A stretch of 64,000 bases of DNA from Paracoccaceae bacterium (GTDB taxonomy: Bacteria > Pseudomonadota > Alphaproteobacteria > Rhodobacterales > Rhodobacteraceae), in contig JABURR010000098.1 in NCBI GenBank assembly GCA_014762635.1, positions 124,001-188,000 on the forward strand, read 5' to 3'. The notes under the pieces were generated by a model. That model ran no database searches. It saw only the letters and a program-made list of their open reading frames with translations, and had not been told where the DNA came from. The position numbers and the translations under genes are program-made. Positions 20,599 through 30,756 of this stretch are shown piece by piece. How positions within the stretch are numbered: position 1 is the stretch's first letter; the number at the start of each line of letters is the position of its first letter.

Positions 20599-21195
20599 CT
20601 ATTCCGCCGCGGGGCGCGGGGCGTACATCGCCTCGACCTCGGCACCGGTCAGGCCGCGGCGCTCACCCTCGAAGCCGTAGAACTCCGGCTTGCGGTCGAC
20701 ATAGGTGTCGGCGGTCAGCTTGAGGCCTTCGTGATTGTCGAAGCACCCGACCGACAGGCTGATCATGCCGTCCATCGCCTCGGGCGAGACGTGACGCACG
20801 AAAAGGCTGGTGCCGCACAGGCGACAGAAGCAATGGCGGTTCCGGTCGGAACCCGCGTATTGCACGATATGGCCCCAGCCCGAAAAGGCGGTGTTGGTGG
20901 CGCGCACCATCACGGTCAGGGCGACGCCGCCGGTCCAGCGGCGCGACTCCTCGTCATGGTTGGCGAAGACCTTCTCGGCGGGCGTCTTGATCTTGAAGCT
21001 GATCGCGTTGCACAGGCAGCGCCCGGTGCGCAGCCCGTCTTCGCCGGGTGTGACGTTTTCCTTCAGCAGTTCCGGCAGCTTGTCCCGCGACATGGCGGGC
21101 GCGATTGCCGCATGGGTATAGTTGGTCGTGTCAGGCTTTTCGCCATCCTCGGCCCCGAAGCCGAAGGGGCACTTGCCCTCGCTTTGCTGAGTCAT
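20599..21195 (-). CDS. GFA-domain (CENP-V/Gfa-like) protein with altered zinc site
   Basis: 198 residues. The GFA fold is recognised by GRCLCNAISFKI (C-x-C entry) and HCFCRLCGTSLFVR (the FCxxCG exit). GFA proteins bind zinc and include glutathione-dependent formaldehyde-activating enzymes, though most have no proven activity. The usual central C-x-H-C-x-x-C stretch is replaced by ANHDEESRRWTGG, so several metal ligands are missing. The N-terminus (KCPFGFGAEDGEKPDTTN) is an extra 50 residues with one Cys. ATG 21195. Role unknown. Confidence 0.75.
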   Translation of the reverse strand: MTQQSEGKCPFGFGAEDGEKPDTTNYTHAAIAPAMSRDKLPELLKENVTPGEDGLRTGRCLCNAISFKIKTPAEKVFANHDEESRRWTGGVALTVMVRATNTAFSGWGHIVQYAGSDRNRHCFCRLCGTSLFVRHVSPEAMDGMISLSVGCFDNHEGLKLTADTYVDRKPEFYGFEGERRGLTGAEVEAMYAPRPAAE

Positions 21196-21309
21196 CTGCG
21201 CACTTCCTTTTTATCCACCCGCACGTCGGCGGGACCCTGAGCGTTTCACCCCGTTCTTCCACCCAAATAGGCCAAAATTTTGACTTTGTCGCCAGATTCG
21301 GGACGAAGA

Positions 21310-22869
21310 TCAGGCCGCCGCTGCGTTGTCACAGGAGCTGCAGAAGATCTCGCCGGTGCGCCGATGCATCCGAACGGTAGACCCGGCCGGAATTTCCCCG
21401 ACGCAGCCATCGCAGACCGTCGCCACCTCAACCTTTTCGTGGACAAAACCCTCGAGATCGATCTCCTGGCCATTCCGGATCACCCCGCGGGGGGCCGACT
21501 TCACGATCTCGCGGCGGAAAATCTCGTGGATCGCGGCCCAGCGGTGCAGAAGCTCCTCGGGGATCTCATGCCGACGCGCGATCTCCATGAAGAGGTTCTC
21601 GCGATATTCGAACAGCTCGTCCGAGATCACCATCCAGTGGTGCGAGTTGAAGGGCTTTTCACCGAAGTAGAGCTTGGTGCCGTGAATCAGGTCCTGCAGG
21701 AAGTTGTACTGCTTCTCGATCGCCCGCTGCTTGGTCACCCGATGGAAGAAGGGCGCAAGGCGCGGGTCGTCGTAGACCACAGTATAGAACTCGTGCAGCA
21801 TCCGGGTCAGTTTTTCGCCGTTCTCCAACGCCTCCCAAAGCTCGGCATCGGGCTGGATCTGGCGAATCTTCTCGGCATCACGGGGCTGGTAGGGCACCGG
21901 CGAGTCGAACGGATCGCAATGGATGCGGTCATAGGGGATGCCTGCCGTCACCGCGCGAATGCGGGCATCTTCCACCATGTCCGGCCCACCGCAGAGGAAC
22001 AGCGCCACTTTTGACAGGTCATGCCCGGCAGCGAAGGCCAGTTCGGTGACCCGGGCGGCGGGCTGGTCACCCACGGGTTCCTGCGAGGCAGCGGTCACAA
22101 AAGTGATCCGGTCACGCAAGGAGTCGGGGATCAGATCTCCCAGGTAGAGGTCTTCGGCCTTGCCGGCCCCATGATAGAGATAGATCGGCCCGGTGTGCCC
22201 CTTGGCCACCGCGTCCCGCGCAAGGCCCAGCAGGGCGCCACCGCCCGACCCGGTGCCGATCATCAGAAGCGGCGTATCGTTCAAGGCCTCATCATAGATG
22301 AAGCCACCCTGCGGCGCCTGGAAGCGCACCTCGTCCCCGGGCTTCAGGTCGCGCGCGACCCATCCGCTGACGGCGCCATCGGGATAGATTCGCAGATCGA
22401 CGTCGAGGAAATAGTCGTCCGCCTTGAGACTCACGACCGAATACCGGCGCGTGGCCCCGTCCGGGTTCATCAGACCGATGGTCTGCCCGGGCAGCCAATC
22501 CACCTCGGTCAGTGGCTCCAGCCGCAGACGGATGAGTGTCGGCGCGAGTTGCACCTTTTCGGAAACACTGGCCGTGAACGTGCATTGGCTGAGGTCCGGA
22601 AGCACGGCCTCGACCTCGGAGATATCCTCGGCGCAGCAGGGCAGAAAGAAGCCAAGCTCCTGATATTCAGGAGAAAGCCTTTCCTTGGCCTTCTCGCCCG
22701 GATCGCCGGAGACCGCCTGCAACATGCACGAGGCGCAAGCGCCCTTGCGGCATGAAAAAGACACCGGCGCACCGCGCCGCAACATCACGTCAAGCGCCCG
22801 TTCACCCGGCGCAACCCAATAGGTTTCGCCATCATAGCGAATCCAGTTCTTTCCAGTTTCACTGGCCAT
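21310..22869 (-). CDS. Ferredoxin-flavin reductase-truncated globin-zinc ribbon fusion
   Basis: 519 residues with four parts. Residues 1-90: a plant-type 2Fe-2S ferredoxin with Cys40, 45, 48 and 78. Residues about 97-320: a ferredoxin-NAD(P)H reductase module, with flavin motif RRYSVVS at 141 and NAD-side GTGSGGGALLG (205) and LFLCGGPDMVEDA. Residues about 343-458: a truncated-globin domain (LHEFYTVVYDDPRLAPFFHR, a Q-x-x-F-L helix, then SHHWMVISDELF near His410-411, the likely haem-ligand region). Residues 486-513: CDGC...CSSC, a zinc ribbon. Electrons could pass from NADH to haem for O2 or NO chemistry, but in flavohaemoglobins the globin is N-terminal, so the order here differs. It diverges from the phosphatase gene (226 bp between starts). 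Confidence 0.82.
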   Translation of the reverse strand: MASETGKNWIRYDGETYWVAPGERALDVMLRRGAPVSFSCRKGACASCMLQAVSGDPGEKAKERLSPEYQELGFFLPCCAEDISEVEAVLPDLSQCTFTASVSEKVQLAPTLIRLRLEPLTEVDWLPGQTIGLMNPDGATRRYSVVSLKADDYFLDVDLRIYPDGAVSGWVARDLKPGDEVRFQAPQGGFIYDEALNDTPLLMIGTGSGGGALLGLARDAVAKGHTGPIYLYHGAGKAEDLYLGDLIPDSLRDRITFVTAASQEPVGDQPAARVTELAFAAGHDLSKVALFLCGGPDMVEDARIRAVTAGIPYDRIHCDPFDSPVPYQPRDAEKIRQIQPDAELWEALENGEKLTRMLHEFYTVVYDDPRLAPFFHRVTKQRAIEKQYNFLQDLIHGTKLYFGEKPFNSHHWMVISDELFEYRENLFMEIARRHEIPEELLHRWAAIHEIFRREIVKSAPRGVIRNGQEIDLEGFVHEKVEVATVCDGCVGEIPAGSTVRMHRRTGEIFCSSCDNAAAA

Positions 22870-23095
22870 GTCGCTGCTCCCCAGCTAATCAGCGCGTTTC
22901 CGATTGTTTTTTCCCTGAGCCACGAATTCGTCGAAATTTGGACCCTCAAAGGACGGTTTCACGGGTTTCAAATAGCGCGATCATGCTCACCACGGGGGCA
23001 GCGAGCCAGTCGCTATTGCAATTTTGACCGACGTCTCGCTACAGTCTGCCGTGGTGGGGCTAGTAGAAAACGTTTCGCGAAGGGCGATAATAAAC

Positions 23096-23641
23096 ATGCT
23101 GAGCTCTGGAGCCCACGGGCAAATTGAACTGCCCGAACCCTTCCTGGACGCGCCGTCCTCCTACAATGGCCCAAGCGGTTTTTGCTGGTTGATCCGTGGC
23201 CGTATGGCAGGGGTCCCGCGCCCTGGCTTGATGTCCCCGATTGAGGAAGATCTGAATGCGCTGCGGCGCATGGGGGTGAATCTTCTGGTCACCCTGACCG
23301 AGGAATGGAACCCGCCGCACGACACTCTGTCCGAGCACGGCATCCAATCCTACTATGTACCGATTCCCGACATGGGGCCGCCGACCTGCGAACAGGCCGA
23401 TGAGACCTGTGCCTACGTGGAGCACGCCCTCGAAAAAGGTCGCACTGTTGCTTTTCAGTGCCACGGCGGGCGCGGACGCACCGGAACGCTGCTGGCGCTG
23501 CAACTCATCTGGTACGGCATGAGTGCCGCCGCAGCCTTTGAAAATGTGCGTTCCACGAACAAAAACTGGATCGAATCAGACTCCCAGGAAGAGTTCCTGA
23601 GAATCTACGAAAGCCATCACGGCAAAAAAGCGGCAAGCTGA
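23096..23641 (+). CDS. Dual-specificity-type protein phosphatase (CX5R)
   Basis: 181 residues of the PTP/DSP fold. The catalytic loop VAFQCHGGRGRTGTLLALQL contains Cys122 and Arg128 of CX5R; IPDMGPPT supplies Asp92 as the likely general acid, the layout of DUSP23/CDKN3-like enzymes. CWLIRGRMAGVPRPG (30-44) is the N-terminal edge strand. Substrates could be phosphoproteins or another phosphoester. ATG 23096 is chosen (AAGGGCG upstream); a TTG start at 23024 would add 24 residues. It is the first of six rightward genes running into the dynamin-like GTPases, 153 bp before the roadblock-like gene. The C-terminal half of the ABC-type protein at 25105 is a dead copy of this domain. Confidence 0.87.
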   Translation: MLSSGAHGQIELPEPFLDAPSSYNGPSGFCWLIRGRMAGVPRPGLMSPIEEDLNALRRMGVNLLVTLTEEWNPPHDTLSEHGIQSYYVPIPDMGPPTCEQADETCAYVEHALEKGRTVAFQCHGGRGRTGTLLALQLIWYGMSAAAAFENVRSTNKNWIESDSQEEFLRIYESHHGKKAAS

Positions 23642-23794
23642 CCGTCGACAATCACAAATCCATCCATTTTTTTGCCATTTTCATCGTTAAGGTGACAGTG
23701 AGCGAAAAGGCACCAACCCGAGGATTCTCTCGGGGCGGCACGGTCGTTCAAGTTAAGTAACCCCAAGTTGGGCAAAGCCAGAGAAGGTATTATA

Positions 23795-24199
23795 ATGTCC
23801 CTAGACAACGCACTCAAAACCGCAATGGGTTCCGTTCCCGAATGCGTGGCCTCCGGCTACGTTGATATCGAGACGGGTATGCTGCTCGGCGTACACACCG
23901 TCGACTCTCACCCCCAAGAAGTTCTGGACATGCTCGCGGCTGCAACTGCTGACCTGTTCCAGGGTTCGAGCGTCGTCAACATCGAGAACTCGTTCAAGAA
24001 GGCTCGTGGCACCGAGAAAGACACGAACCACTACTTCCAGGAAATGCTGGTGTTCTCCGAGAACCTGCTGCACGTCTTCATGCGCACCAAGCAGTATCCG
24101 AACCACATCGTGACCTTCGTTTGCCGCAAGAGCGCGAACGCCGGCATGGTGCTGACCAAAGCCCGCATGGGCATGGAAGCGGTTACCGCCGCCGTGTAA
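23795..24199 (+). CDS. Roadblock/LC7-like small protein
   Basis: 134 residues. The opening helix (SLDNALKTAMGSVPECVA) followed by SGYVDIETGMLLGVHTVD is the alpha-beta-beta start of the roadblock/LC7 (profilin-like) fold; a long helix (QEVLDMLAAATADLFQ) and C-terminal strands (LLHVFMRTK, HIVTFVCRKS) and helix complete it. Family members such as MglB bind or activate small GTPases and form dimers; the only GTPases nearby are the two dynamin-like proteins downstream. The assignment is by pattern, not a firm match. ATG 23795 has a good site (AGAAGG, 23782-23787). A terminator-like hairpin follows at 24207-24243, so this gene may be expressed more than those after it. Confidence 0.65.
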   Translation: MSLDNALKTAMGSVPECVASGYVDIETGMLLGVHTVDSHPQEVLDMLAAATADLFQGSSVVNIENSFKKARGTEKDTNHYFQEMLVFSENLLHVFMRTKQYPNHIVTFVCRKSANAGMVLTKARMGMEAVTAAV

Positions 24200-24206
24200 A
24201 CTAGTC

Positions 24207-24243
24207 GGCCTCCGCGCTGATTTTGTGCGGGGGCCATCTTTTC
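24207..24243 (+). terminator. Intrinsic terminator inside the phosphatase-dynamin gene run
   Basis: GGCCTCCGC (24207-24215) pairs with GCGGGGGCC (24227-24235), nine pairs with one G-U, followed by ATCTTTTC. It lies 7 bp after the roadblock-like gene and 46 bp before the next gene. It would reduce read-through, either separating two units or setting unequal levels. Confidence 0.7.
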
Positions 24244-24289
24244 AAATTGGTCATCCAAGGATGGCGATGCGTAATGGGTATTCACACCG

Positions 24290-25102
24290 ATGTCATTCAA
24301 TGCTGCGGTTGTCGGAATTCTCAAGCGTGTCAGCGAAAATGCGCGTACCGGAGTGCAAGGTATCCGGGTGATCAAGGCCGCCAGCGACGCTGAGTGCTTG
24401 GCTTCGATCCTTCGCGAAATTCGTGAAACCAAACTTCCCCGCCATTTGACATTCCGAGCCGGGTCCGGGACCGGGCTGTGTCTGGCTGTGGGAGGCCGAA
24501 AAGTTTTCAAGGTTGTGTCGGGTGATGCCGGAGAGCTCCTCGATCGTCCGCTCGAGCCGACGGATGCGACCGGTCTGGCGTCGCTTTTGACGGCATTCTC
24601 CAGTGCCGGCGACCTGAGCGTCGTCAGCGACCCGGTGAACTCTGTTGCCACGGCTGGCCATGCCGGTGTCGGGATCGGCGATCTGACCAAGGCCGCCCTG
24701 AACGAGGCCGATGCGGCGGACACCGCCGCGAAGGCTGCTGCCAAAGATGGCCCGGCAGAAGTCAGCGACTGGCTGCGCCAGAGCTTCGATGACCTGAAAG
24801 AGATGTCCTTCGATCCGGTCCTGATCTCCAGTTCCGGGGAGCTTGTCGCCCACGAAGGCGACAACGATTTTATCCTGAGCGTCAGGAAAGAGCTCGCCGA
24901 GGCGTTCCCTGCGTGGATATTGCGCACGGCCAAGGGCCTTGGGGATCAGCAACTGCTGATCCTGCGCCCCACGGATTCCCGAAGCTATGGGGTGTGTATC
25001 GCTGCCGACAAGGGCGCGATCGTGGCCACCACGTTCAGCGGGACCAGGATCGCCAAGCTTCTTGCGTACAAAGGAAACTTCAGCGCGGAAGACGCGACAT
25101 AG
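24290..25102 (+). CDS. Protein of unknown function, possibly two roadblock-like lobes
   Basis: 270 residues, no recognised family. Two globular parts are joined by an Ala-rich linker (about 130-155, LNEADAADTAAKAAAKDGPA). The N-terminal part has mixed strands and helices (GIRVIKAASDAECLASILRE, HLTFRAGSGTGLCLAVGG). The C-terminal part (DPVLISSSGELVAHEGDND, a helix, QQLLILRP, YGVCIAADKGAIVATTF) has the strand order of a roadblock-like sensor fold, which is an inference. No catalytic motif is seen. The ribosome-binding site is weak. The stop is 2 bp before the ABC-type gene, so the two proteins are probably made together and may form a complex. Confidence 0.6.
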   Translation: MSFNAAVVGILKRVSENARTGVQGIRVIKAASDAECLASILREIRETKLPRHLTFRAGSGTGLCLAVGGRKVFKVVSGDAGELLDRPLEPTDATGLASLLTAFSSAGDLSVVSDPVNSVATAGHAGVGIGDLTKAALNEADAADTAAKAAAKDGPAEVSDWLRQSFDDLKEMSFDPVLISSSGELVAHEGDNDFILSVRKELAEAFPAWILRTAKGLGDQQLLILRPTDSRSYGVCIAADKGAIVATTFSGTRIAKLLAYKGNFSAEDAT

Positions 25103-25104
25103 CC

Positions 25105-26463
25105 ATGGCCTCCCCCCTCCTCGCGATCAAAGGTCTGAGCCTGAAAGTCGGGGGCCGTGTCTTGCTTCGGGATTTCGGATTCGAGCTTCCCGACCGGGGC
25201 GTCGCCGCTTTGATGGGGCCGGTCGGTATCGGCAAGTCCACCTTCCTGTCATGGCTCTGCGATGAAGTCGACACGGGGCAGGTCGAGGCTGAGTACGAAC
25301 AAGCTTTCTTCATGGGCAAGCCGCTGGATCGGACGAACCTGCCGAGCCTGCTGAAGCAGAAATCCGTCAACGATGCCGAAACGGCCCTGGCGCGCATCGC
25401 CGAGGTGGTCAAGCTCAGCCCGAACCTGATCTGCCTCGACGAAGTCACGGCTCATCTCACCCCCGAGGACGCGGTCGTTGTCCTTGAGGAGATCAGCAAG
25501 ATCGCCAAGGATCGAGCCGTTCTGATGGTGTCGCACAACCAGGCGCAGGTTGCAGCCTATGGTGACAGCGTGATCCTTGTCGCGGGCGGCAAGGTGCAGG
25601 AGCATAGCCCCGCCAAGCAATTCTTCGTGGCGCCGCAGTCTGATCCCGGTCGCCAATTTCTCAATACCGGCGGTGCTATCGCGGTGCCGCCTGACGCGGA
25701 CCCGCGGTATCTGTCACCCGAACTTCGCGGCATCCCGGAAGGCCTGGCGGGCACTTTGCAGACCCGAGCCGAGGAAGATTCCCTCTGCTGGATCCTGAAA
25801 GGCAAGCTTGCGGCCTTCATCACCGGGGCGAAGGGACTGAATTTCGAGAAAGACGTGCCCTGCCTGGCCGAGAATGACGTAACGTCCCTTCTGTTCTTCG
25901 GGGCGAACCCACCCGCACCGGCGGGCGTCAAGATCATGGCTGACGCAGGCGTGAAATGTTTCTGGCATCCGCTGGAGGTCGTCAAGGACGTCTCGCGCGA
26001 TGACCTCTATTTCTGGGACACCTCACACCCCGAAGGTATGCCGACCCGCGAAGACAGCGCAAAGATCAGCTCTGAGATTACCTCGTGGATGGGTAAGGGG
26101 GAAAAATTCGCCATCGTGATCTCTGAGGGCGAAAAAGCCGCAGCCTTCATGATCGGTGCCCAGCTTGTGTACCTGGGAATCCCAGCGGGCATGGCCACCG
26201 AGGTTGTTAGCGAGTTGCGAAAAGATTTGGAGTTCGGCCCCGAAGAGGAACAGTTATTGTGGGATCTTGAACTCAATCGCGATCTGCAGGATGACAGAGC
26301 CCCCGGGAATAGTGCATCCTCTGAATCCGAGTCGGAAAGTGATATTTTCCTGAAGCTCCTTCAGGATGAGTCCTCCGAAAACGGAAAGAATACAACGGAA
26401 GACCCGAATGAACGATCAGGCAAACCAACCAAGGGTGGGGCAGGCAATTGGCGCGTCGCTTGA
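25105..26463 (+). CDS. ABC-type ATPase without signature motif fused to a pseudophosphatase domain
   Basis: 452 residues. The first 190 form a short ABC nucleotide-binding domain: Walker A GPVGIGKST (38-46), Walker B LICLDEVTA (108-116, catalytic-type Glu113) and H-loop VSHNQ (His144). The helical domain is reduced to about 40 residues and I find no LSGGQ. Residues about 205-372 match the phosphatase encoded at 23096: CWILKGKLA against CWLIRGRMA, and around the active site 33 residues align without a gap, with Cys122 replaced by Ile339 and Arg128 by Ala345. This is therefore a catalytically dead phosphatase fold, probably a binding module. The C-terminus is acidic and Ser-rich. There are no membrane segments. 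The gene overlaps the first GTPase gene by 56 bp. Confidence 0.78.
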   Translation: MASPLLAIKGLSLKVGGRVLLRDFGFELPDRGVAALMGPVGIGKSTFLSWLCDEVDTGQVEAEYEQAFFMGKPLDRTNLPSLLKQKSVNDAETALARIAEVVKLSPNLICLDEVTAHLTPEDAVVVLEEISKIAKDRAVLMVSHNQAQVAAYGDSVILVAGGKVQEHSPAKQFFVAPQSDPGRQFLNTGGAIAVPPDADPRYLSPELRGIPEGLAGTLQTRAEEDSLCWILKGKLAAFITGAKGLNFEKDVPCLAENDVTSLLFFGANPPAPAGVKIMADAGVKCFWHPLEVVKDVSRDDLYFWDTSHPEGMPTREDSAKISSEITSWMGKGEKFAIVISEGEKAAAFMIGAQLVYLGIPAGMATEVVSELRKDLEFGPEEEQLLWDLELNRDLQDDRAPGNSASSESESESDIFLKLLQDESSENGKNTTEDPNERSGKPTKGGAGNWRVA

Positions 26464-28489
26464 GGCGACGAAGCAAAATCTGCTCGACGTCACTCAGCGC
26501 TTCGTAGCGGCGGATGCCGATGAAGAACTGCGCGATCGCGTTGAGCCAATCGTCGATAGCCTCACCTCTCATTTCAGCAAAGTAGCCTTCGTGGGCCAGG
26601 TCAAGGCCGGGAAATCGACCTTGGTGAACTGCCTGACACACAAAGCGGACCTGCTGCCGTCGGACATCAACCCGTGGACAACGGTCGTGACCCAGCTGAA
26701 TTTCGGGCACCCCTCGGGGCGGCATTCCGGCGCGATCTTCCGGTTCTTCGACGACGCCCAGTGGGATCGTCTGGCCAAGCGCGGCGGCCGGCTGGGTGAA
26801 CTGACCGAAGGCCTGCTGGAAGACTACAAGAAGGAAATGCTGAACGAACAGGTCGAGGCGATGCGCCACCGGGCGCAGCTCCGCCTCAGCGACCAGTTCG
26901 AGACGCTGCTGGGCAAGGCGCACCGTTTCGAGAAGGTGAACCGCTCGGTCATCGAACGCTATGTCTGTTCGGGTGACGCACCCCAGGAACGGATCCGCAA
27001 CCCGCAGGCCGGTCGTTTCAACGACATCACCCGCGTGGCCGAGATCTATTTCGAGCAGGAGCCTTTCGGCACCCCCATCTGCGTGATGGACACACCCGGC
27101 ATCAACGACCCGCTGTTGATCCGCGAGGAAATCACCCAGCAGCACCTCGAGAATGCCGAGTATTTCGTGGTGGTCCTGTCGGCGCACCAGCCGCTGACCG
27201 AATCCGACGTCCGGCTTGTCCGCATTCTGAAGGCGCTGAAGCGCGACCAGATCGTCGTCTTCGTCAACCGGATCGACGAGATCCATCACCTGGCCGAGGA
27301 CTTCGAGGAATTGCGCGGTCGGGTGAAGGCCAACCTGAACAACGAGCTTGAAGGGCTGGATGTTCCGGTGCTGATGGGCAGTGCGGCCTGGGCCAACTAC
27401 TCGATCACCGGGGACGAGAGCGACATCGATCCCGAGGCCCTGGAAGAGTTCGCCAAGTTCCGTGGCGTGGAGCTGCCCGAAGGCGGCCTGGAGAATGCCG
27501 ACGAGCCGACCCGCCGCGCAATTGCACGGCAGGTTTCCGGCCTGACCGAGCTTGAAGATACCCTGAGCACGATGCTCCTGAACGGCGCCAAGTCGAGCTT
27601 CCTGGGGAGCGCAGCCAGCGCGCTTGTCTCGCTGTCCCGCCAGAGTTCCGAACAGACCAAGATCCGCCTGGACTACCTCTCGCAAGAGTCAGGCCCCGGA
27701 AGAACGGTCCTGACGCCCGAGACCAAGGAAGAGGCGATCAAGCTGGTGCGCGACCGTCTTTCGATGCGCGCCCATGCGATCACCCAGGCCGGACGCAATG
27801 CCTGGGCCAAGCTTCTGACAAACCTCGAAGGTGACGCGACCAAATTTGCGAAGGCGCAACAGGAAGGCCTCGCCGGCGTGCTGGCAACGCTGAAACGCGG
27901 GCAGGACATCCATATTGACCTGGATCCGCTGCGGGATCGCTTGCGCGATAACTACGTGAAGCGCTTCGATGAGATCCAGAATCGGATCTGGCTGGATCTG
28001 CGCGCCCTGAGCAAGGAATTGCGCGAGCTATTCGACCCGGAAATCGAGAAGCGCCTGCGCCACATCAACATCGAAACCCTCGGCGTTCTGTCGCTGTCAC
28101 CGCGGACCGACCCGCTCTATCGTACCGTGACGCTTGACCTTTCCACCGGCTGGCTTGGCTCCCTGTTCGAAAGCTCGGGCACCAAGGCGGAAAAGATGGT
28201 CAATACGATCCAGGTCCAGTTCGCCGACATGTGCCGTGAGCTGATCGAGTCGCGCCGCGAAGAATTCGAAACAGCAGTGGAACGTTCAGCGAATAGCTAT
28301 ATCATCGACGTGACGCGGATTCTCGAGGAACTCGCGGGCAAGAACGTGTCGAGCGTCGATACTTCCGAAGCGAAGCGCGAAGCCGACGCAGCCGAGGCCC
28401 AAGCCCAGCTCGAGTTGACCGAGACCGTCGTGAAGGAACTGGAAGGCATCGCCGAAGAGCTGGGACTGGAAACCGAACTGGATGACTGA
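26408..28489 (+). CDS. Dynamin-like GTPase, large
   Basis: 693 residues. G1 is GQVKAGKST (63-71), the G2 Thr lies in PWTTVVT (90-96), G3 is DTPG (228-231) and G4 is VNRID (Asn287, Asp290). The G domain carries a long helical insertion between G2 and G3 (residues about 105-200, LLEDYKKEMLNEQVEAMRHR), and the region after 380 is mostly helical and coiled-coil-prone, as in bacterial dynamin-like proteins of the CrfC/Leo type. Such proteins bind or remodel membranes in a GTP-dependent way. No clear transmembrane helix is seen, so a peripheral paddle is likely. ATG 26408 (MNDQANQP) lies inside the ABC-type gene; the end overlaps the second GTPase gene by 8 bp. Confidence 0.87.
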   Translation: MNDQANQPRVGQAIGASLEATKQNLLDVTQRFVAADADEELRDRVEPIVDSLTSHFSKVAFVGQVKAGKSTLVNCLTHKADLLPSDINPWTTVVTQLNFGHPSGRHSGAIFRFFDDAQWDRLAKRGGRLGELTEGLLEDYKKEMLNEQVEAMRHRAQLRLSDQFETLLGKAHRFEKVNRSVIERYVCSGDAPQERIRNPQAGRFNDITRVAEIYFEQEPFGTPICVMDTPGINDPLLIREEITQQHLENAEYFVVVLSAHQPLTESDVRLVRILKALKRDQIVVFVNRIDEIHHLAEDFEELRGRVKANLNNELEGLDVPVLMGSAAWANYSITGDESDIDPEALEEFAKFRGVELPEGGLENADEPTRRAIARQVSGLTELEDTLSTMLLNGAKSSFLGSAASALVSLSRQSSEQTKIRLDYLSQESGPGRTVLTPETKEEAIKLVRDRLSMRAHAITQAGRNAWAKLLTNLEGDATKFAKAQQEGLAGVLATLKRGQDIHIDLDPLRDRLRDNYVKRFDEIQNRIWLDLRALSKELRELFDPEIEKRLRHINIETLGVLSLSPRTDPLYRTVTLDLSTGWLGSLFESSGTKAEKMVNTIQVQFADMCRELIESRREEFETAVERSANSYIIDVTRILEELAGKNVSSVDTSEAKREADAAEAQAQLELTETVVKELEGIAEELGLETELDD

Positions 28490-29690
28490 CAACTCGTCAC
28501 ATATGCCTGAACTCGCCGTCTTGAGCGAATTCCTGTCGCTGACCGCGCAGGAAGAGAGTTCAGGTGGCCTGCATGACGAGGCGCATCGGCTTTACGTAGG
28601 ATTGCATTCGCAGCCGCGTGTGGCCGTTGCCGGTGAATTCAGCTCGGGGAAATCCTCGCTGGTGAACCTTCTGGTTGGCACGGATCTGGTGCAGACAAGC
28701 GTTCTTGCCAGCCGCCTGCCGACGATTCTGTATGAATACGGAACCGAGCAAAAGATCATGGTCGGCTGGTGGAGCGACACCGCCGAGGACAAGCGCGAAT
28801 TCGCGGATCTGGACAGCGCCGCCGAACTGAAACCCGATTTCATCCGCGTGACCCTGCCCGCGGACATCCTGCGCATGGTCAGCCTGATCGACCTTCCGGG
28901 AACGAACGACCCCCTGCGTGCCAAGGAACGGACGCTGGAAATGGCCGACAACGCCCATATCCTGCTCTGGTGCACCAACGCCGTGCAGGCCTGGCGCGAG
29001 ACAGAGCGGCGCACATGGTCTCAGCTTCCCGGGCAGCTCAAGGAAAACGGCATTCTCGTGATTACCCACGTGGATCTGCCCTCGATCCGCAAGTCGCTTG
29101 ACCGTCTGATGAAACGCATGACGGACGAACTGTCATCGCATTTCCACGCGCTCATCCCGTTCCAGAGCCCCAAGGCAGCCAAGGCGCGCAAGGACGGGAC
29201 TGTATCGAACAAGACCGCCTGGGAAGAGGCGGGCGGCGCACAACTTCTGGAAAACATCGCGACACTTGCGGCAACGGTTCGCAAGGAGTCCCTCGCCTCG
29301 GCGCGGGCCTTGATCGAGAAGGAAATTAATCCTCGTCTCGAGGCGCTACGTGCCGAAGCCGCGGCCTCGGTTCCAAAACCCGGGGAAATCCTTGAGGAAT
29401 GGCGCAGCACGGTCGACGGGATTGTCAGCCGTGTCGAAGGCGACAAGAGCATCGGGACCGATGAGTTCCTTAGCCTGTGTCGCGCAGCGGTGCAGGATGT
29501 CAGCCGAATGCTGGAGCACCCCGGCCTCGAAGGTCCCGCCGTGGCGGCCCTGAAAGCAGAATTCCGCGGCGCGGCGCATATGTTCGATCAGTCGCGCCTT
29601 GCGGATGGCGATGAAGGGCCTGAAGAGGCCGCCTTGATCCTGCTTCAGCTTGGATACGAGCTGGGCTCTTTCGCAGCGCAGGACGGCTGA
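28482..29690 (+). CDS. Dynamin-like GTPase, small
   Basis: 402 residues. G1 is GEFSSGKSS (51-59), G3 is DLPG (137-140) and G4 reads ITHVD (194-198), so the usual Lys of N/TKxD is His. The G domain is followed by only about 180 residues, largely helical (KESLASARALIEKEINPRLE), much shorter than in the upstream protein, and no membrane segment is seen. Paired large and small dynamins encoded together often act as hetero-oligomers, which is the likely arrangement here. ATG 28482 overlaps the previous stop (ATGACTGA). The stop is 4 bp from that of the convergent gene. Confidence 0.85.
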   Translation: MTDNSSHMPELAVLSEFLSLTAQEESSGGLHDEAHRLYVGLHSQPRVAVAGEFSSGKSSLVNLLVGTDLVQTSVLASRLPTILYEYGTEQKIMVGWWSDTAEDKREFADLDSAAELKPDFIRVTLPADILRMVSLIDLPGTNDPLRAKERTLEMADNAHILLWCTNAVQAWRETERRTWSQLPGQLKENGILVITHVDLPSIRKSLDRLMKRMTDELSSHFHALIPFQSPKAAKARKDGTVSNKTAWEEAGGAQLLENIATLAATVRKESLASARALIEKEINPRLEALRAEAAASVPKPGEILEEWRSTVDGIVSRVEGDKSIGTDEFLSLCRAAVQDVSRMLEHPGLEGPAVAALKAEFRGAAHMFDQSRLADGDEGPEEAALILLQLGYELGSFAAQDG

Positions 29691-29694
29691 ACGC

Positions 29695-30756
29695 CTACCC
29701 TTCCCACGCGGCCTTGGCTGCAATCTCGAACTTTGTACGCAAGGCCGGAAGACAGGCATGTTCCGGGTCCAGTTGCAGGACGCGGGCCAGGGCCGATTCG
29801 AAGACCTGCATGATCTTCGGCTCCGCCCGGCGACCCAGGGGGCGCAACTGGGCGGCAACCGCCTCGGCGTCCTTCAGGATGGCCGAGATATCGTCCATCT
29901 TGCCCACCGCTGACTGAAACGGCGTCACGATATCCAAGAGTTGCTGGCGGAACTCGGCCTCGGTCTGACGGTCTTCTTCCAGAAGATTGGCGTCCATGAC
30001 CTTGCCGATACCCAGCGCAAAAGCCGCCTTCGTCTGCCTTTGGTGCCCGTCGTAGATCTTGAGCATCGCCTCGGGCGGCTGCGCAATGATCGGGGTCAGG
30101 ATGCGCGACCGGGCGAATTTGCGTCGCCCGATCATCTCGGCCATGTCGACGCCAAGGCCGGATAGCACATCGAAGATCACACCCCGGTTCACCGCATCGA
30201 TCGGCAGTTCCGCCGAAAGGTCAAGCTCCGGCTCCCAGGCCTGCGGTTCGCCCTCGTTGATTACCTCGTCGCCGGTCATGCTCTCCTTGCTTGCGCCAAG
30301 GCGACGGATCACCTGCCCACCCTGCCAGATCGACATCAGGTGCCGCTCATGGGTCTGGCTGTTCATGTGGCTGAAGATCTCGATCAGGGTCAGGCGCGGC
30401 GCGATCCGGCTGAGTGCCGATGCCAGTCCGAGACAAGCCGGTGTCTCCACATATGTCAGATGCTCCGCCCCTTTCGGGGTCGCGATCAGAGTGCTTTCAA
30501 GGGTCGGAATCTCGTTCGCGTAATTGCTGGTCTGCTCGAAGGCATGCATCATCAGCGAGATCATCTGCACCTTGGACGGCGGGGTCCGCTCCAGCGAGTC
30601 CTCCTGCAGGGCGATCGGCCCCTGAATGGCGCGGACGCAGCCAGCGGCGAAGGGAAAGGCGATATCAAAAGGGGCGCGCATCAGGATCGCCTCGACCACC
30701 CGGTCGGGTTCCTGCATATCCCACGGCGCAAATTGCCTATGTATCGCACGCTCCAT
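29695..30756 (-). CDS. Protein of unknown function converging on the dynamin genes
   Basis: 353 residues, no family recognised. There is no signal peptide or membrane helix. The N-terminal 180 residues are mixed (FDIAFPFAAGCVRAIQGPIA, HLTYVETPACLGLASALSRI, RLTLIEIFSHMNS), and the rest is mostly helical, with a run from about 250 to 330 (EAEFRQQLLDIVTPFQSAVG, DDISAILKDAEAVAAQLRPL) that could be a coiled coil. The segment IGRRKFARSRILTPIIAQPP resembles a linker. Start ATG 30756; an alternative is M14 (30717). It ends 4 bp from the small GTPase gene. A link to the dynamin genes is suggested only by position. Confidence 0.65.
   Translation of the reverse strand: MERAIHRQFAPWDMQEPDRVVEAILMRAPFDIAFPFAAGCVRAIQGPIALQEDSLERTPPSKVQMISLMMHAFEQTSNYANEIPTLESTLIATPKGAEHLTYVETPACLGLASALSRIAPRLTLIEIFSHMNSQTHERHLMSIWQGGQVIRRLGASKESMTGDEVINEGEPQAWEPELDLSAELPIDAVNRGVIFDVLSGLGVDMAEMIGRRKFARSRILTPIIAQPPEAMLKIYDGHQRQTKAAFALGIGKVMDANLLEEDRQTEAEFRQQLLDIVTPFQSAVGKMDDISAILKDAEAVAAQLRPLGRRAEPKIMQVFESALARVLQLDPEHACLPALRTKFEIAAKAAWEG

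Follow-up and report, generated by a model that had tools for sequence, protein, structure and literature searches.

A conserved gene run of predicted roadblock-fold proteins, paired dynamin-like GTPases and an enzyme-pseudophosphatase pair in an alphaproteobacterial family, a possible membrane-remodelling switch

Introduction

The excerpts of PMC9481161 and PMC4316618 used here give small Ras/Rag-type GTPases as the known targets of roadblock regulators, and the former describes the regulation of small GTPases by heteromeric roadblock complexes. In MglA/MglB and in the actinobacterial conservons a GTPase is likewise encoded with a roadblock-fold protein, and conservons also include a histidine kinase and an unknown protein (excerpt of PMC4316618). 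Here we analysed a run of six genes, A-F, located on the plus strand at 23096-29690 of the window, that is, of the whole 64-kb stretch of Paracoccaceae bacterium contig JABURR010000098.1 that was studied. Whereas the GTPases of MglAB and the conservons are small and Ras-like, those of the window are dynamin-like; Pfam identified no small Ras-like GTPase gene among A-F and the neighbouring gene G, in which the GTPases are E and F. The window also differs in having two proteins of predicted roadblock fold, neither of whose families is recognised by the Pfam model Robl_LC7, and in adding a phosphatase, an ABC-pseudophosphatase and a flavoglobin.

Two described groups of bacterial dynamins are related to the locus. 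Campylobacter Cj-DLP1/2, whose tetramer tethers liposomes, resembles the window in its adjacent large and small dynamin genes, with E and F each related to one partner; the excerpt of PMC6104087 from which this description is taken mentions no roadblock or phosphatase genes alongside. LeoABC/Eleos also comprise bacterial dynamins and are represented by PADLOC models that E and F match in part. Among signalling systems, the type VI secretion threonine-phosphorylation pathway is an example of a kinase-FHA-PP2C phospho-module, and such genes accompany the cores of relatives of the window, whereas the window has A and D instead. Compared with the DSP/PTP phosphatases (Tc-R-P, PTP-SAK), A has the same domain with its CX5R motif, and D carries a dead copy of it on an ABC ATPase.

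A six-gene run with a large and a small dynamin-like GTPase

The coordinates and strand that the initial annotation had given for all six genes were reproduced, and its spacing was exact, with a 2-bp gap between C and D and overlaps of 56 bp between D and E and 8 bp between E and F. The unit that it had confined to these genes extends leftward to include the GFA and flavoglobin genes at 20599-22869. No tRNA was found within the 64-kb window.

Gene E (26408-28489, plus strand) and gene F (28482-29690, plus strand) encode the large and the small dynamin-like GTPase that had been proposed, matching Dynamin_N with E-values of 7e-16 and 2e-14. The best PDB match of both was 5owv, the Campylobacter Cj-DLP1/2 tetramer, with chain A for E (E 7e-11) and chain C for F (E 3.5e-14), part of each protein being covered. 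We found the GTPase motifs G1, G3 and G4 in 129, 129 and 129 of 131 E proteins and in 130, 129 and 120 of 131 F proteins, many of which are close Ruegeria copies. By analogy with paired dynamins, E and F would form a hetero-oligomer on membranes. Of the proposed remodelling or polarity machine, the remodelling part is backed by membership of the dynamin family and by similarity to a dynamin pair of solved structure; for polarity there was no evidence.

Two proteins of predicted roadblock fold

When the PDB was searched by sequence with the profiles of B and of C, every match had E above 0.2, so predicted folds were used for both proteins. Gene B (23795-24199, plus strand) belongs to a family without a Pfam model, and none of its 58 aligned members matched Robl_LC7 at E up to 0.01. 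That B is a roadblock/LC7-like protein, previously a guess, was borne out by its predicted fold, though without Pfam or NCBIfam support. The AlphaFold model (pLDDT 93.4) has the order alpha-beta-beta-alpha-beta-beta-beta-alpha, as in solved roadblock proteins. Foldseek against the PDB gave a roadblock protein as the best hit (E 5e-8), with Streptomyces roadblock 3kye and MglB as the best structural matches, and all 50 matches shown were roadblock, MglB/MglC or Ragulator/LAMTOR (MP1-p14) entries, some of whose titles we take to denote Ragulator.

Gene C (24290-25102, plus strand) had been regarded as encoding an unknown protein. This holds for its new N-terminal domain, which contains a nearly invariant T-x-L-x-R stretch, but its C-terminal half (24767-25066, plus strand; model residues 160-259, assigned by topology) appears to be roadblock-type. 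Modest support is provided by the AlphaFold model (pLDDT 86.9, pTM 0.60), in which this half has the roadblock-type order of helices and strands, and by Foldseek, whose best matches were MglB (E 1.8e-4, printed without an aligned range). Robl_LC7 matched none of the 58 aligned C-family members, and B and C showed no similarity in sequence when compared by hhalign (0.8%).

A predicted phosphatase and a homologue with a lost active site

Gene A (23096-23641, plus strand) encodes a DSP/PTP-type phosphatase, as expected from its C-X5-R motif (QCHGGRGRTG), and matches Tc-R-P (E 7e-21) and PTP-SAK (E 2e-18) in Pfam, with DUSP23 among its PDB matches. The CX5R motif was kept in all 15 phosphatase-domain proteins with a phosphatase-HMM match of more than 100 bits, namely eight from the family and seven ABC fusions from outside the class. 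An alternative upstream TTG start of gene A is possible at 23024.

Gene D (25105-26463, plus strand) had been described as an ABC-type ATPase without a signature motif. ABC_tran indeed matched residues 21-66 and LSGGQ is absent, but a second domain, related to phosphatases, had been overlooked (25783-26262, plus strand; residues ~227-386). This C-terminal domain is homologous to A, as indicated by BLASTP (E 3e-7) and by hhalign between family members only (98.5%, E 1.5e-15, compared with 0.1-0.3% for controls); the roadblock part of a fusion protein at locus L056 was trimmed off the phosphatase profile used for hhalign and for the counts. At the active-site position, CX5R is absent from the D domain in 9/9 family members, whereas it is intact in 7/7 ABC-phosphatase fusions outside the class. 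The D protein of L056 has an unrelated CX5R elsewhere, and that of L054 has a nearby Cys with other spacing. Walker A was present in all 16 D-type proteins, and Walker B and the H-loop were seen in the alignment by eye. The LSGGQ signature was absent from the same 16; its position is occupied by LSTVQ in L148 and LSPVQ in L149, and all nine family members have a shortened stretch there. Literature searches of open-licence PMC papers found no description of a fusion between an ABC ATPase and a dead phosphatase. In the reading favoured below, the dead domain of D probably binds the phosphoprotein or holds A.

Conservation of the gene run in relatives

Within a single family of alphaproteobacteria, with Actibacterium and Gemmobacter relatives among its carriers, the run forms part of a conserved system. 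The B alignment as a query recovered 48 loci, and C alone as a query of genome contigs recovered no relative. The B profile was found in 91 of 394 family genomes. In a set of 149 family genomes, B was present in 31 and E in every one of these, E occurred by itself in 4 and 114 had neither (Fisher p 5e-28, with one genome per genus and kinship uncorrected; genome G059, whose weak E row was dropped, was counted as lacking E). Most of these genes are also neighbours, with E at most 12 kb from B at 31 of the 35 B places.

Nine loci of the window type (type I) have most of the gene set in common, and the full A-B-C-D-E-F order occurs in five, namely the window and L036, L052, L104 and L105, with weak C matches in L104 (40 bits) and L105 (27 bits). 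C is absent from two of the nine (L054 and L056), A and F are missing from L059, and E lies on the other strand in L031 and L059. B stands alone in L107, and B-C occurs without dynamins in L030. In L056 a GTPase, A and B are fused in one 627-residue frame. Because the full order recurs in four other loci, the run is more than a chance assembly. That unrelated genes merely happen to lie side by side in one genome is extremely improbable, as it is contradicted by the conserved neighbourhood and the gene fusions. Homologues of A-F were thus not scattered, and the unit proposed in the initial annotation withstood this check.

Exchange of phospho-control modules on one core

In most relatives, Ser/Thr kinase, FHA and PP2C genes take the place of A and D around an E-F-B-C core. 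Among 38 family loci of this version outside the Ruegeria set, C and F were each found in 38 and E in 35, and the accompanying module comprised FHA in 38, PP2C in 36 and the kinase in 33. Pfam detected no kinase among the nine window genes scanned. Since two unrelated phospho-control modules accompany the same core, the phosphorylation input that had been suggested for the window is a well-supported inference. Outside the class, seven loci have the counterparts of A and D as a single ABC-phosphatase fusion, with CX5R intact, beside B.

These seven loci bear on a different reading, in which two modules share an operon, with A, B, D and the flavoglobin forming a redox-linked signalling module and E and F a separate dynamin pair for membrane upkeep. 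It would account for the absence of C, E and F matches from 7/7 of the loci (three of which are 4-5 kb contigs), for the 8 of 48 E places with neither B nor P0008, and hence no roadblock gene, within 12 kb, and for two closely inspected distant B relatives, in L153 and L160, whose neighbours are Arf/Ras-like GTPases together with either a globin or an ODP protein. We nevertheless consider it rather unlikely, as all 31 B-carrying family genomes have E, mostly adjacent, other loci have a different phospho-module around the core, and a GTPase is fused to A and B in L056. In addition, a third locus of the window genome has another E-F pair beside yet another roadblock-like gene. Equally doubtful is the corollary that the target would be a small Ras-like GTPase encoded elsewhere, or some different target, with C part of either module.

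Partial resemblance to defence dynamins

An anti-phage or stress defence like LeoABC/Eleos was also considered, in which A, D and the roadblock proteins would sense a trigger and the dynamins would then disrupt or seal the membrane. E matched the PADLOC models LeoA (E 6.8e-10, best stretch 105-243 of 559) and LeoBC (8.8e-8, over 79-434 of 601 profile positions), F matched LeoA (1.8e-6, best stretch 54-79 of 559), and the distribution in the family is patchy. However, none of these matches spans a whole model, no PADLOC model matched A, B, C or G, and D matched through its ATPase parts only (mad3 1e-11, GajA 0.023, PDC-M07A 0.05). On inspection by eye, the neighbouring genes at ~19.2-33.9 kb seem to serve lipid/LPS and housekeeping functions, and the presence of flavoglobin and GFA genes points to redox chemistry instead. 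The only plasmids in which B was found were five large Ruegeria records typed as non-mobilizable. Membership of a defence system was not adopted, and we regard such a function as quite improbable.

Flavoglobin and GFA partners

Divergent from the operon lies a flavoglobin gene (21310-22869, minus strand), encoding a 2Fe-2S ferredoxin, an FAD/NAD reductase and a bacterial globin in one protein (Pfam Fer2, FAD_binding_6, NAD_binding_1 and Bac_globin); the PDB matches of the reductase part were P450/oxygenase reductases. A gene of the GFA family, glutathione-dependent formaldehyde-activating-enzyme-like (20599-21195, minus strand; Pfam GFA E 7e-13), is an optional partner. Each was present in six of the nine type I loci, the window included, and the flavoglobin gene also in three of the seven ABC-phosphatase and B loci outside the class. 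The flavoglobin is a candidate redox, O2 or NO input to the operon. A search allowing up to 2 mismatches found no FNR-type box in the divergent intergenic region between the flavoglobin gene and gene A (22870-23095), and the window as a whole had 12 matches compared with 11.65 expected.

A possible switchable membrane-remodelling machine

The gene set matched no paper found in the open-licence PMC literature, judged from listings, and no family library searched, in agreement with the earlier statement that it has no named counterpart. Because relatives keep the genes together and no named match was found, a new bacterial membrane-remodelling switch may exist. In the reading that we favour, and to which we give an even chance, the run encodes a switchable machine in which a roadblock-controlled dynamin pair is set by phosphorylation. 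E and F would be a heterotypic pair like Cj-DLP1/2, assembling on, tethering or remodelling a membrane, and B and C would act on them as a scaffold or GTPase regulator, comparable to heteromeric roadblock complexes on small GTPases. The state of the core would depend on protein phosphorylation, controlled in the window by phosphatase A jointly with the ABC-type ATPase D and in most relatives by the Ser/Thr kinase, FHA protein and PP2C phosphatase. A further input, of redox state, oxygen or nitric oxide, might come from the flavoglobin and GFA protein. What we observed is the gene set with its conservation, the folds predicted for B and C, the homology of A and D with the lost active site, and the swapping of modules; the roadblock-dynamin contact, the direction of switching, the kinase acting in the window genome and the redox input are inferred.

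A stronger and more tentative version, which we hold to be somewhat doubtful, is a new class of machine in which a roadblock pair, as a Ragulator-like platform, directly controls dynamin-superfamily GTPases under reversible phosphorylation by interchangeable modules, with the flavoglobin supplying a redox or gas signal. As part of this version, and with the same reserve, one of the modules would go back to an apparently undescribed ABC-phosphatase, now divided between an active enzyme and an ABC-pseudophosphatase.

If the conserved coupling is true, roadblock proteins would extend to membrane-remodelling dynamin GTPases, and it would give a handle on the switching of bacterial dynamins. Direct predictions follow both from the swapping of two unrelated phosphorylation modules around one core and from a fusion that may have turned into an enzyme and its own pseudoenzyme, and culturable marine relatives, Ruegeria for example, are suited to testing them.

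The initial annotation had missed several features: in C the roadblock-type half, in D the pseudophosphatase domain, beside the run the flavoglobin and GFA genes, and in most relatives the version with kinase, FHA and PP2C. Gene G (29695-30756, minus strand), convergent with the run, had no Pfam or PDB match; it is optional, being present in two of the nine type I loci, with a homologue at the same place in L036.

Gene run and its conservation

The six rightward genes at 23096-29690 encode a DSP/PTP phosphatase (A), a protein of predicted roadblock fold (B), a 270-residue protein with a predicted roadblock-type half (C), an ABC-type protein (D), and a large (E) and a small (F) dynamin-like GTPase. 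Re-reading of the sequence reproduced exactly the overlaps of 56 and 8 bp and the 2-bp gap reported in the initial annotation. Gene G (29695-30756) is convergent to the run, and the source is a draft genome of 3.55 Mb in 98 contigs, the window lying on contig C17. The whole gene set was not covered by any family or defence model of Pfam, NCBIfam, PADLOC or PHROGs.

The B profile was positive in 91 of 394 family genomes, each representing a different genus, and in 2 of 289 class genomes, namely the window's own genome and a second genome of the same family. A type-I-weighted B profile matched 37 of 398 phylum genomes, five of them, the own genome included, scoring above 200 bits and the rest, mostly of one family, at 21-78 bits. 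The E search matched 36 of 149 family genomes, or 35 after a weak row (G059, 2e-11) was dropped. B was present in 31 of these 149 genomes, every one of which also carried E, and four had E without B (Fisher p 5e-28, a test that takes genomes as independent). E lay within 12 kb at 31 of 35 B places; at the other four, E was on another draft contig (G024 and G061) or elsewhere on the chromosome (G003), and the fourth was a locus on contig C32 of the own genome. Among 48 E places, 34 had B within 12 kb, 40 had B or P0008, a second small roadblock-like protein, and 8 had neither. P0008, marginally similar to Robl_LC7 (E 0.035), occurred in 8 of the 149 genomes, all with E, and 9 of its 11 places were near E.

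The own-genome locus on C32 (L023, 6255-10432) contains FHA, an F-type dynamin, B and C, and no E, kinase or PP2C match was found in the stretch available around it; it is apparently a reduced form of the type II locus described below. Another dynamin pair followed by P0008 is located on C74 of this genome (L024, 6006-10241), with no A, C or D matches.

Two candidate control modules around a shared core

With six duplicates (L053, L057, L100-L103) removed, 114 B loci remained, and HMM matches up to 10.5 kb from B were used to sort them into types. The nine window-like (type I) loci of the family carried D (9), E (9), F (8), A (8), C (7), flavoglobin (6), GFA (20599-21195 in the window; 6) and G (2), and kinase, FHA or PP2C was found in none of the nine. 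The full order A-B-C-D-E-F was observed in five loci (window, L036, L052, L104 and L105), and flavoglobin and GFA occurred together in four (window, L031, L036 and L052). C is missing from L054 and L056, both with dynamins in front; A and F are missing from L059, in which, as in L031, E is on the opposite strand.

Type II loci outside the Ruegeria set (n=38) carried C (38), F (38), FHA (38), PP2C (36), E (35), a third dynamin (34) and a kinase (33), with A and D in 0 of 38. In the set of close relatives that are mostly Ruegeria (n=37), C, E, F and kinase were found in all 37 and FHA and PP2C in 36, usually in the order E-F-B-C-E-F-kinase-FHA-PP2C. Pfam verified the kinase, FHA and PP2C domains in L040 and L029, and these type II genes are carried by an annotated Ruegeria megaplasmid on which the B and C homologues are labelled hypothetical protein. 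The remaining nine family loci contained C (6), E (5), F (5) and flavoglobin (1). Outside the class, seven loci had an ABC-phosphatase (flavoglobin in 3; C, E and F in none) and 14 had B only. Gene content thus indicates that the E-F-B-C core is kept while the phospho-control module is exchanged, and this exchange is the main ground for proposing a phosphorylation input.

Behind B-C, L029 (9601-13754) encodes a PBP-domain/OmpA fusion as well as PilJ-domain proteins, which may be periplasmic sensors; L030 has similar genes. Among plasmid records, B was limited to five large Ruegeria ones, and E-like dynamins were found in 12 Leisingera plasmid records without a B match.

Dynamin pair and roadblock proteins

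Dynamin_N matched both E and F. Their best PDB matches were different chains of 5OWV, the Campylobacter Cj-DLP1/2 tetramer (E to chain A, 7e-11; F to chain C, 3.5e-14). The available text of PMC6104087 describes this assembly as a lipid-binding 2:2 tetramer able to tether liposomes. The G1/G3/G4 motifs were present in 129/129/129 of 131 E and 130/129/120 of 131 F sequences, sets with many closely related copies from Ruegeria. In type II loci, the third dynamin (for example L029, 3085-4803) retained G1 in 31 of 32 sequences, G3 in one and G4 in none, and is likely a pseudo-GTPase. Three consecutive dynamin pairs precede the B locus in L054 and L058.

B had zero matches in Pfam, NCBIfam, PADLOC and PHROGs at the limits used. 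Its AlphaFold model (alignment of 58 sequences, pLDDT 93.4) has the roadblock order of elements, and the best 50 Foldseek rows were all roadblock, MglB/MglC or Ragulator-type (best E 5e-8), bearing out the earlier roadblock-like assignment. C had no family match in the library scan except one chance-level row (E 0.016). Its model (pLDDT 86.9, pTM 0.60) has a roadblock-type element set at residues 160-259; MglB was its best structural match (E 1.8e-4), the matched part of C being assigned by model topology. Of the 58 B and 58 C members compared with Robl_LC7, none matched, and sequence similarity between B and C was undetectable (hhalign 0.8%).

Phosphatase A, pseudophosphatase D and their proposed origin

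A matched DSP/PTP families with CX5R intact, and its residues 29-168 align to D 227-385 (BLASTP, E 3e-7). A profile of eight A sequences matched D C-terminal halves at 99.7% (E 8e-27) in a set including three active fusions, and at 98.5% (E 1.5e-15) with the nine family members only (hhalign); controls in which A was compared with the profiles of GFA, C and PP2C gave 0.1-0.3%. CX5R was lost at the active-site position in 9 of 9 family D proteins. The earlier reading of D as an ABC-type ATPase without signature motif held, LSGGQ being absent from 16 of 16 aligned ABC sequences; several tens of residues are missing from the signature region of the nine family members, and LSTVQ (L148) and LSPVQ (L149) stand in its place in two others. 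These comparisons indicate that D is an ABC-pseudophosphatase.

In the seven loci outside the class, from Comamonadaceae and Aquabacterium MAGs (L060-L062) and other genomes of the same phylum (L147-L150), a single protein adjoining B joins the ABC ATPase to a phosphatase with intact CX5R, and no second phosphatase match was found in the surrounding stretch. Their union in one protein favours the view that A and D work together, and the simplest history would be an ABC-phosphatase ancestor giving rise to the free active enzyme A and the pseudoenzyme D. In a tree built by FastTree from 85 B sequences, arbitrarily rooted and with several low supports, type I B and B beside the fusions formed one clade (support 0.79), also containing L055, L058 and L107, and the long-branched type II sequences stood apart. 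The tree would fit a history in which an ABC-phosphatase/B/flavoglobin unit was transferred and joined a dynamin/C core, as one of several possible sequences of events.

L056 (8519-10399) holds a 627-residue single open frame combining a segment that resembles a GTPase (51 bits against the profile of the third dynamin; P-loop read by eye) with A and B; L056 is from a MAG, so an assembly error is possible. In L147 (9688-14224), the ABC-phosphatase and B pair is beside genes that are possibly type VI secretion parts (TssA-like, by eye).

Flavoglobin, proposed mechanism and novelty

The flavoglobin gene (21310-22869), divergent from the run, joins 2Fe-2S, FAD, NAD and globin domains, the reductase portion being similar to P450 and oxygenase reductases. 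Matches above 100 bits were found in six of nine type I loci, in L058 and beside three Comamonadaceae/Aquabacterium ABC-phosphatase and B pairs, and in 0 of 75 type II loci (one weak match, 50 bits, in L139). Elsewhere in the phylum, two remoter B loci inspected in detail, L153 and L160, have several roadblock-like proteins near Arf/Ras-like GTPases, together with a two-globin protein and an ODP-family protein, respectively. A search of the intergenic region of the flavoglobin/A pair gave no FNR-type box. It is plausible that the system takes a redox, oxygen or NO signal.

We propose that the E-F pair would assemble on the membrane, with B and C as its roadblock platform or regulator, by analogy with the heteromeric roadblock complexes that act on small GTPases according to the available text of PMC9481161. 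A would strip phosphate marks from the core and the dead domain of D would bind them, and ATP bound by D would serve as an additional switch; no writing kinase was found among the window genes scanned. PTPs have a redox-sensitive cysteine, through which flavoglobin and GFA, as setters of the signal, might possibly act on A. As a whole, this mechanism is one that we mostly infer.

No description of this gene set was found among the papers that searches of open-licence literature listed, and 'dynamin' has 0 occurrences in the available text of PMC4316618, which surveys Ras-like GTPases of prokaryotes together with relatives of MglB. Each domain is known; since the combination was undescribed in the models and literature searched, we consider it categorically new as a system, with a working principle that may resemble known roadblock-GTPase switches.
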